A stretch of 64,000 nt of DNA from Candidatus Neomarinimicrobiota bacterium (GTDB lineage Bacteria > Fidelibacterota > SORT01). The notes below the pieces were generated by a model, which saw only the letters and a program-made list of their open reading frames with translations, was not told where the DNA came from and ran no database searches. The stretch's first letter is position 1; each line of letters starts with the position of its first letter. A program made the translations under genes and the position numbers. Location: positions 62,001-126,000 of the forward strand of contig JACZTG010000005.1 of NCBI GenBank assembly GCA_022573815.1, in the 5' to 3' direction. Shown piece after piece: positions 45,288 to 48,991 of this stretch.

Positions 45288-45472
45288 TCGTTTACAACGG
45301 GGCAAAGTTAATAACCTTAAAATGATATTCCAAATAAATTTTTCTTATATTTCTTTATCTATTTACTATATTGGAAGTGATTCATTTTAGTAATCTAACA
45401 TAACAAATAATAACGTATCACGCTAAAGAAAAATTGATTATGTATTGTAATCAAATATATATTTATCCACAC

Positions 45473-45546
45473 GCTGGAGTAGTTCAGATGGATAGAACGC
45501 CTGATTGTGGATCAGGAGGCCGTGGGTTCAAGTCCCGCCTCCAGTA
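45473..45546 (+). tRNA. tRNA-His (GUG) without encoded G-1, with U72 and A73
   Basis: A 74-nt cloverleaf: acceptor GCTGGAG/CTCCAGT, D arm GTTCAGATGGATAGAAC, anticodon stem CCTGA/TCAGG with loop TTGTGGA (anticodon GUG at 45507-45509), and T arm GTGGG/CCCGC. The acceptor ends as G1:U72 with discriminator A73, and the preceding base is C, so the usual G-1:C73 pair of tRNA-His is absent. CCA is not encoded. It lies 116 bp upstream of hisS. Confidence 0.93.
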
Positions 45547-45662
45547 CAGGACAAAAGATTTAACATAGTCGAAAGTTACTGCTATCTGACTTGAATCCGT
45601 CTTGGTTTACCGGGTAATAGCCATTGTGAATTTCATCAAATTAAAAAGGTCGCCAAATATAG

Positions 45663-47159
45663 TTGCGAAACGAAAATAAACATAACAGACCGAAACCAAG
45701 AACTGTAAAAGGTTTTAAAGATTCGCTCTGGATTGAATCACTTTCTCGCCGGAATATGTTGGAAAGCATCAGAGGCGTTTTTGAAAATTATGGGTTCATG
45801 CCCCTTGAAACACCCGCACTCGAATATGTGGACGTTCTTGGTAAATTTCTTCCTGACAGCAACGAAATTGAAGAAGGAATATTTGCTTTTGAGTCTGAAG
45901 AAGAATGGGTGGCATTACGATACGACCTCACAGCTCCTCTTTCGAGGGTAGTGGCTCAATACCAGGAACTACCTTTACCATTTAGAAGGTATCAGGTCGG
46001 TCGGGTCTGGCGGCGTGAAAAACCCGGTCCCGGCAGGTTCAGAGAGTTTACGCAATTTGATATCGATACGGTTGGCAGTTCGTTGATGTTGGCGGATTGT
46101 GAAGTCTGCGCCGCGCTTGCTGATGCATTACTGGCGCTTGGAATCAAGCGGAATGATTTCGAAATAAAAATAAATAACCGTAAAATAGTCAACGGGGTTT
46201 TAGAACTTGCCGGTATCAATTTAAATGATTCTGACGGAAACCCTTCTGCCTTATCTGTTAACGTTTTGAGATCAATTGACAAGCTTGACCGGTTAGGTAT
46301 TCGCGGAGTATCGGAACTGCTGACCACAGGGAGAAAAGACAAATCAGGTGCGTTTACAAAGGGAGCCGGCTTAGACAGTGAAAAGGCAGACATTATCTTA
46401 GAGTTTCTTCAATCCCCGAGAAAATCCCGGAGCGAAGTATTAAGCTCTCTTTCTAACCTGATGAAAAACTCTTCTGTCGGTATGGAAGGCGTTGAAGAGA
46501 TGACAGAAATGGATTCACTCTTTTCAGCAATGGGATACGATGATACTTCAATTATTTTAGACCCCACTGTTGTAAGAGGAATGTCTTACTATACCGGACC
46601 TGTTTTTGAGGCTAATTTAACATTTGAGATCAAAGACGAGAAAGGTCGGAAAAAAGAATTCGGCAGTATAGCCGGCGGTGGAAGGTATGACGATCTCATT
46701 GGCAGATTTAAGGGACAAAAAGTTCCCGCCACCGGTATCTCAATCGGCGTAGATCGTTTACTCGCCGCCTTATCTTTAATGAATCCCGATTCTCCAAAAA
46801 ATCTGCAGGTTCCTGTGGTGGTAACCGTTATGGATAAAGAGAGGATTGAAGAGTATTTAAAAATAACATCTGAACTAAGAGGTGCCGGTATTTCTGCTGA
46901 GATGTTTCTTGGCGGCGGAGGCTTTCAGAAACAGATGAAATACGCTGATAAGCGGGAAGCGCTAATTGCGATAATCGCCGGCTCCGATGAGTTTGATAAG
47001 AACACTGTCACAATAAAAGACCTTATGTTAGGAAGAGAGCTTTCCAAAGACCTCTCCAATAGGAAAGATTGGTTAAGCAAACAACCTTCACAGGTAACGG
47101 TCCCAAGATCAGATCTCATAAAGGCAGTTAAAGAAATTATTTCGAGATATAAAGAGTGA
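45663..47159 (+). CDS. hisS: Histidyl-tRNA synthetase, alphaproteobacterial type
   Basis: A 498-residue class II synthetase charging tRNA-His. The start TTG at 45663 is the only one that leaves the KGFKDSLWIESLSRRNMLE entry helix intact. Motif 1 covers YGFMPLETPALEYVDVLGKFLP. Motif 2 reads FRRYQVGRVWRREKPGPGRFREFTQFDIDTVG, matching the alphaproteobacterial form (EKPGPGRF) rather than the E. coli form ERPQKGRY. The HisA signature is VRGMSYYTGPVFE and motif 3 is GISIGVDRLL. The C-terminal anticodon-binding domain is intact. The HisRS type agrees with the unusual tRNA-His upstream. Confidence 0.95.
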   Translation: MRNENKHNRPKPRTVKGFKDSLWIESLSRRNMLESIRGVFENYGFMPLETPALEYVDVLGKFLPDSNEIEEGIFAFESEEEWVALRYDLTAPLSRVVAQYQELPLPFRRYQVGRVWRREKPGPGRFREFTQFDIDTVGSSLMLADCEVCAALADALLALGIKRNDFEIKINNRKIVNGVLELAGINLNDSDGNPSALSVNVLRSIDKLDRLGIRGVSELLTTGRKDKSGAFTKGAGLDSEKADIILEFLQSPRKSRSEVLSSLSNLMKNSSVGMEGVEEMTEMDSLFSAMGYDDTSIILDPTVVRGMSYYTGPVFEANLTFEIKDEKGRKKEFGSIAGGGRYDDLIGRFKGQKVPATGISIGVDRLLAALSLMNPDSPKNLQVPVVVTVMDKERIEEYLKITSELRGAGISAEMFLGGGGFQKQMKYADKREALIAIIAGSDEFDKNTVTIKDLMLGRELSKDLSNRKDWLSKQPSQVTVPRSDLIKAVKEIISRYKE

Positions 47160-48991
47160 GCAAGCCCGGCAGTGAAATCGTCGAAGTATTAGAAATAAAA
47201 ATCTCATCACCTATAGTTCTAAGCCATCTCCCTGATAAAAAATTAACCCTCTCTCAGCTTGTTGCTGTTGCTCGTGGCGGGTCAAACAAAAAATTTGCCA
47301 GAGTCGAAATCGACAGCGATAGTATTGATCGGTGTAAGCGAAGCTCGGATTATATTAGCGAAGCAGTAATTCGTGCGGCAGAATTATCCAAAAGCGCCAA
47401 GGAAGTTGATGAAATAGACTACCGCCAACTCATATACGGCGTGAACACGGGTTTTGGAAATAATAAAGACAAACCGATAAACAGCTATTATGACGCATGC
47501 AGACTTTCAGAAAATCTGATTTACAGCCACCTAACAGCGGTAGGATCACCTCTTTCCACAGAAATTGTCCGTGCGGTTATGTTGATAAGATTAAGGGCAT
47601 TTGTTGAAGGTCGCTCCGGCGTCAGACCGGAACTGATTTTTCTTCTAAGGGATATGCTAAATAATTGTGTTCATCCATTGATTCCTTCGCAGGGCAGCCT
47701 CGGCTCCTCCGGTGATCTATGTCAATTGGCTCATCTTGCCGTAGTCATGATTGGTGGAGGAAAAGCATTTCACGAACCAGATTTCATCTCTAATAAGAAT
47801 AAACCTGCTGAATTGCTGTCCGGATTGGAAGCTTTAGAATCCGCTGACTTGAAACTTCTTCCCACTCCAGAAAATTTAGCGGATAATGGTGACCGTACAA
47901 TTCATTTAGCGCCTAAGGAGGGACTTGCACTGACAAACGGAGCTGCCGTATCGGCAGCTATGACTGCATTGTCCGTCTTTAATGCTGCCATTCTGCTTAA
48001 AACGGCTAATATAATCGGATCGCTCTCCTTACAATCGTTAGGCGGATTCAGCAGAGCTTTTGATCCGAAGGTGCATAAAGCCAGACCATATAAAGGCCAA
48101 ATCAGTGTGGCGGCGGATATTAATAAATATATTGAGGGCTCGAATCTTATCAACGCCGCTGCTGAAGGACATCATCAACAGGACGAATATTCTATCAGGG
48201 CGATTCCACAAGTTCATGGCGCTGTTTTGGATGCAATAGATCATTGCAGAAAATTGATCGAAATTGAAATTAATTCCGCCACTGATAATCCGCTTATTTT
48301 TATTGAACCAGAGGATATATCGCATGAGGTTCACGAAAGGGATAAGGTGAGCTATTGGGAAACTTATTCAGCTGCCAATTTTCACGGTGAACCTGTGGGA
48401 CTTGCGGCAGACTATCTGAAAATCGCCGTCGCTGAAATAGGAAATATTTCTGAAAGACGGATGCAGCTGCTCCTTGACACAAAAAACAACAGAGGCATGC
48501 CCTCAAATTTATCTTCCGGTGAAGGAGGTCTCGATTCGGGACTTATGCTTTACCAATACACTGCGGCGAGCCTCGTTTCTGAGAATAAAGTTCTCTGCCA
48601 TCCTTCTTCGGTTGACAGCATTCCGACGTCTGCTAATATCGAAGACCATAACGCAATGTCCACTACGGCTTCCCGACATCTCACTTTTGTGGTAAAAAAT
48701 GTCACCACGGTACTTGCCGCCGAGCTCCTTGTTGCTTTACAGGCTCTTGACCTCAGAATAAGCGGCAAATATCCGATAACTTCACATAGCGGGAAAATTC
48801 TAAATCAAAAATATGAATTAAACGATGTTGCAAAACACGTTTATCAGCTGATTAGAAATGGCTCTGAGGATGAGACGGGAATTTCGTTCATCGGCACCGA
48901 TCTGGATTTTTATTCAAACCCTCCCAACGAATCAATCGAAAAAGCCGCAAGAATAATTCATATGGGAAAAGTAGTATTAGCTGTTACTTAA
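47156..48991 (+). CDS. Aromatic/histidine ammonia-lyase (MIO enzyme, SSG variant)
   Basis: A 611-residue lyase. The start GTG overlaps the hisS TGA as GTGA, so the genes are coupled. The MIO prosthetic group normally forms from Ala-Ser-Gly; here the motif is S184-S185-G186 in QGSLGSSGDL. Active-site Tyr is present (Y94 in IYGVNTGFG), as are QDEYSIRAIPQVHG, ANFHGEPV, and PSSVDSIPTSANIEDH. The enzyme releases ammonia from His, Phe or Tyr; adjacency to hisS hints at histidine (HutH-like), but other hut genes are not in the window. The protein is about 100 residues longer than typical HutH (N-terminal 30 plus an insert near 200-235). Confidence 0.82.
   Translation: MSKPGSEIVEVLEIKISSPIVLSHLPDKKLTLSQLVAVARGGSNKKFARVEIDSDSIDRCKRSSDYISEAVIRAAELSKSAKEVDEIDYRQLIYGVNTGFGNNKDKPINSYYDACRLSENLIYSHLTAVGSPLSTEIVRAVMLIRLRAFVEGRSGVRPELIFLLRDMLNNCVHPLIPSQGSLGSSGDLCQLAHLAVVMIGGGKAFHEPDFISNKNKPAELLSGLEALESADLKLLPTPENLADNGDRTIHLAPKEGLALTNGAAVSAAMTALSVFNAAILLKTANIIGSLSLQSLGGFSRAFDPKVHKARPYKGQISVAADINKYIEGSNLINAAAEGHHQQDEYSIRAIPQVHGAVLDAIDHCRKLIEIEINSATDNPLIFIEPEDISHEVHERDKVSYWETYSAANFHGEPVGLAADYLKIAVAEIGNISERRMQLLLDTKNNRGMPSNLSSGEGGLDSGLMLYQYTAASLVSENKVLCHPSSVDSIPTSANIEDHNAMSTTASRHLTFVVKNVTTVLAAELLVALQALDLRISGKYPITSHSGKILNQKYELNDVAKHVYQLIRNGSEDETGISFIGTDLDFYSNPPNESIEKAARIIHMGKVVLAVT

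Follow-up and report, generated by a model that had tools for sequence, protein, structure and literature searches.

Our analysis of a 64,000-nucleotide stretch of DNA from a Candidatus Neomarinimicrobiota bacterium, here called the window, indicates that a linked tRNA-His/hisS pair was very probably brought in by horizontal transfer and took the place of the native one. The data show the replacement, the covariation of synthetase type with tRNA end, the linkage and the foreign origin of the two genes; charging and 5′ processing of the tRNA are inferred. In this view, the ancestor of one small Marinisomatota family of marine bacteria would have acquired a tRNA-His without G-1 (with G1:U72, A73 and its anticodon) together with the adjoining gene for its histidyl-tRNA synthetase (HisRS), and the acquired pair would have displaced the native G-1:C73 tRNA-His and the canonical HisRS. 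In motif 2 of the synthetase, the Gln that recognizes the G-1:C73 pair is missing, and the enzyme is predicted to read the A73/U72 end and the GUG anticodon instead, a mechanism inferred from the identity set published for the Caulobacter enzyme, for which a review (PMC9976931) gives A73, U72 and the anticodon. RNase P would be expected to cut the tRNA at +1, because no G-1:C73 pair can form and the base at -1 is C or U. U-1, the commonest base at that position here, fits ordinary RNase P cleavage. The data show a clear case of a tRNA and its synthetase replaced together within one family.

The tRNA-His gene and hisS of the window

The tRNA-His(GTG) gene lies at 45473..45546 on the forward strand, as found by ARAGORN and by direct reading, and its acceptor end consists of G1 (45473), U72 (45545) and A73 (45546), with C at -1 (45472) and no encoded CCA. 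The hisS gene, at 45663..47159 on the same strand, begins 116 bp downstream with a TTG start codon and encodes a protein of 498 amino acids that scores 365 bits against NCBIfam TIGR00442 (cut-off 286.75), matches Pfam PF13393 and PF03129, and is placed by trees in what we call the A-type, our label for the HisRS type of this pair (motif 2 REKPGPGRFREF). HisZ, the regulatory subunit of ATP phosphoribosyltransferase, was ruled out as its identity, since the hisS cut-off is passed and the anticodon-binding domain is present. Motif 2 reads WRREKPGPGRFREF, with Gly in place of the canonical Gln, the change known to characterize G-1-less enzymes (PMC3937112). The pair thus lacks both features of a canonical bacterial system, G-1:C73 in the tRNA and the motif 2 Gln in HisRS, and has those of the G-1-less alphaproteobacterial type, namely a tRNA-His without G-1 but with A73 and G1:U72, and Gly for Gln in motif 2. 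The sequence-only reading had described this tRNA end, the position of hisS and a motif 2 of the EKPGPGRF kind, as in alphaproteobacteria whose tRNA-His also lacks G-1, and all of these descriptions held.

A sigma-70-like promoter match lies directly 5′ of the tRNA gene (45434..45463, forward strand), and is suggestive only, such matches being no commoner in the real sequence than in shuffles. Together with the lack of a terminator-like site between the two genes, it provides weak evidence that they could be co-transcribed.

Replacement in one family and covariation across phyla

A search of 199 Marinisomatota genomes with the window HisRS returned full-length, high-scoring matches only in the window's own family, f1 (G001, G008 and G019, with 71-73% identity). 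No HisRS match came from a fifth f1 genome, G014, which is 69% complete, and most of the remaining genomes gave only weak partial matches, as expected of a canonical HisRS of ~425 amino acids. When tRNA-His genes were located by a pattern search over 100 Marinisomatota genomes and then read, every one of the 54 non-f1 genomes read had G-1, G1:C72 and C73, and the four f1 genomes had U or C at -1, G1:U72 and A73. The combination is not a product of chance, because it is conserved in all four f1 genomes that have hisS, one of which is the single-cell assembly MT.SAG.2. The f1 loci share the gene order tRNA-Glu / tRNA-His / hisS / lyase; wherever a locus extends far enough, a gene for a sigma-54 regulator precedes these genes, and a canonical hisS was not seen in any of the four genomes.

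The host genome is a Marinimicrobia/Marinisomatota MAG of 2.39 Mb in 65 contigs, 96% complete, whose nearest relatives carry the database titles Candidatus Marinimicrobia/Neomarinimicrobiota. It contains one tRNA-His among 44 tRNA matches and one hisS. The sequence-only reading had named two outcomes that would refute it, a second, normal tRNA-His with a canonical HisRS in the same genome and a tree placing this HisRS among canonical sequences; the former was looked for and not found in this MAG, and the latter did not arise, as the enzyme groups apart. A canonical copy could have been overlooked, given the incompleteness of the MAG, but four family members agree. Addition of G-1 by Thg1 was considered and rejected, no Thg1 having been found in any of ten genomes, all of them members of the family or carriers of the pair; this absence is indirect support for a mature tRNA-His without G-1, whose 5′ end and charging remain inferences. 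The idea that U72/A73 marks only tRNA-His in this genome was also rejected, since G1:U72/A73 is found as well on tRNA-Arg, one tRNA-Glu (CTC) and one tRNA-Met. Because the same end occurs on these other tRNAs, the anticodon must contribute to recognition, and the proposed orthogonal-like His system remains a hypothesis.

Across all the genomes compared, HisRS type and tRNA end covary completely. This was read from 107 comparison genomes and from 70 distinct genomes of the A-type whose tRNA-His was readable, after removal of two duplicates and leaving out two further genomes with A73 in which no HisRS was found. Position 73 is A in 67 of the A-type genomes, U in three and C in none; U72 is present in 69/70 and G occupies -1 in 9/70, whereas every comparison genome (107/107) has G-1, C72 and C73. 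The canonical motif 2 Gln is replaced by Gly or Asp in every A-type enzyme aligned, following the same split as the tRNA end, and both type and end contrast within single phyla in Marinisomatota, Zixibacteria and alphaproteobacteria.

The three genomes with U73 (L267/G374, L371/G344 and L232/G218) combine it with G-1 and G1:U72 beside an A-type HisRS. They possibly represent an intermediate state of the identity rule, and such U73/G-1 genomes could reveal how the rule changes.

Origin of the pair

The body of the f1 tRNA-His, compared with positions -1, 1, 72 and 73 left out, is foreign to the phylum: its best identity is 0.87-0.90 to A-type tRNAs of other phyla versus 0.75-0.79 within Marinisomatota, and A38 and C2:G71, common to f1 and A-type tRNAs, are missing from the canonical tRNA-His of the phylum. 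Linkage, defined as a tRNA-His gene that precedes hisS in the same orientation and no more than 300 bp away (with 600 bp allowed in the subclade around L397), is frequent in the A-type family but not universal, being found in 29 of 66 A-type loci outside alphaproteobacteria, in none of 14 alphaproteobacterial loci and in none of 49 control loci. The suggestion that the altered identity rule and its synthetase were gained together is supported by the family-only distribution, the foreign tRNA body and the conserved linkage in other phyla.

A-type enzymes form one clade in the tree (support 100/98). The clade extends over Zixibacteria, Planctomycetota, Bacteroidota/Ignavibacteria, Krumholzibacteriota, Hydrogenedentota and alphaproteobacteria. 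A GTDB scan and surveys of Zixibacteria, the class of L037, Planctomycetota and the class of L055 showed that about two thirds of the Zixibacteria genomes searched have the type, which occurs in only some members of the other groups. Within the clade, f1, the alphaproteobacterial enzymes and Zixibacteria fall together in a subclade (100/100), so the window HisRS groups with the alphaproteobacterial enzymes and yet lies outside their own branch, which is joined by L034 (99/97). Once sequences from planctomycetes are included, the alphaproteobacterial branch pairs with the planctomycete L397 (99/95), and f1 becomes sister to this group with support of only 91/88; topology tests rejected f1 with L397 (p-AU 0.03) but not f1 with L035 (p-AU 0.33). 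The alphaproteobacterial enzymes are thus a nested branch of a wider family, their nearest sampled relative being planctomycetal. The link to the alphaproteobacterial type drawn by the sequence-only reading is refined accordingly: the pair apparently does not come from alphaproteobacteria, and belongs to a multi-phylum family that encloses their enzymes.

Other planctomycete HisRS (L398-L402) fall outside the A-type clade, as far as they were included in the tree, and some lack the motif 2 Gln, with EKPGPGRY and EKPARGRF as examples. Full-length matches listed in a plasmid search (43-52% identity) were all on alphaproteobacterial replicons, one being a hisS on a 21.9-kb Cereibacter sphaeroides plasmid (NZ_CP015293.1, 14008-15486; hit H5) and the remainder lying on large secondary replicons. 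No viral carriers of the pair were found in viral_contigs.

Several alternatives to co-transfer must be weighed. The HisRS alone could have been transferred, with the native Marinisomatota tRNA-His then adapting in place, a course that Ardell and Andersson reportedly proposed in 2006 for alphaproteobacteria (cited in PMC3937112 and PMC5370408), where the tRNA bodies do not decide: some canonical alphaproteobacterial tRNA-His bodies are equally close, leaving co-transfer or adaptation in place unresolved for that group. For f1 this is unlikely, as the closest matches to the body of the tRNA, and not to its ends alone, are A-type tRNAs from other phyla, and the tRNA gene adjoins hisS as in those phyla. 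A binning artefact, in which a foreign contig was placed in the MAG, would account for a gene pair foreign to the phylum, but it is all but excluded by four independent f1 genomes, the single-cell assembly included, that share the gene order and of which none has a canonical hisS.

Direct transfer from an alphaproteobacterium to Marinimicrobia would agree with the identical kind of motif 2 (EKPGPGRF) and tRNA end and with the proximity of alphaproteobacteria in the tree. It is nevertheless very improbable, since f1 falls outside the alphaproteobacterial branch with L397 between them, no adjacent tRNA-His was seen in the sampled alphaproteobacterial loci, and f1 tRNAs are nearer on average to those of Zixibacteria type than to alphaproteobacterial ones (mean identity 0.80 versus 0.69). 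We therefore favour co-transfer of the linked pair from a donor that has not been identified and that is likely not to be alphaproteobacterial, because the alphaproteobacterial enzymes are nested and closest to a planctomycetal one. A bolder reading, which we hold to be more likely than not, is that a multi-phylum U72/A73 HisRS family, often with an adjacent tRNA-His, moves between phyla as a linked pair and that the alphaproteobacterial loss of G-1 came from this family via a non-alphaproteobacterial source.

Known systems and the adjoining lyase gene

The G-1-less pair of alphaproteobacteria (Rhizobiales, Rhodobacteraceae, Caulobacterales and Hyphomonadaceae) shares with the window pair G1:U72, A73, the absence of G-1 and the motif 2 Gly, and its enzymes are 43-51% identical to the window HisRS and belong to the same clade; the window pair differs in its occurrence in Marinisomatota, in the adjacency of the tRNA gene to hisS and in a tRNA body unlike theirs. 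The eukaryotic cytoplasmic tRNA-His also has A73, but eukaryotes add G-1 with Thg1, which was not found in the genomes of the window pair, and human HARS, without PGPGR, is a weaker match (157 bits) than the Bacteroidota-type structure 6nhi (198 bits). The archaeal-type tRNA-Tyr/TyrRS and tRNA-Trp/TrpRS of candidate phyla bacteria (PMC5370408) likewise join a foreign identity rule to a matching synthetase, but concern other amino acids and are of archaeal origin.

Loss of G-1 has been viewed as probably having one bacterial origin, confined to a single alphaproteobacterial clade (PMC3937112), and whether it arose there by transfer of a eukaryotic-like HisRS or by convergence is disputed (PMC5370408). 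We found no description of the U72/A73 rule in Marinimicrobia, or with an adjacent tRNA gene, in the literature searched, which included few subscription journals. In the literature found, the rule is restricted to alphaproteobacteria with a single origin, and its presence in several other bacterial phyla is new here. Our data point to a source outside alphaproteobacteria for the enzyme of that group, and provide a large number of natural HisRS/tRNA pairs that are candidates for building orthogonal translation systems.

Overlapping hisS by 4 bp is a histidine ammonia-lyase-like gene (47156..48991, forward strand; Pfam PF00221, 509 bits). The substrate of the lyase is uncertain, because SSG replaces the ASG triad of histidine ammonia-lyase, which L055 keeps, and because its score is below the curated hutH cut-off. 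A lyase gene lies directly 3′ of hisS in many loci (L032, L033, L127, L035, L042, L055, L265-L267, L389, L390, L397 and L416-L419, and also L066, L082, L105 and L109). The adjacency is found as well in some Bacteroidota whose HisRS is of a different type, and this recurrent linkage is unexplained. In L154, from another Marinisomatota family with a canonical tRNA-His, a histidine ammonia-lyase-like gene follows about 800 bp after the tRNA-His.
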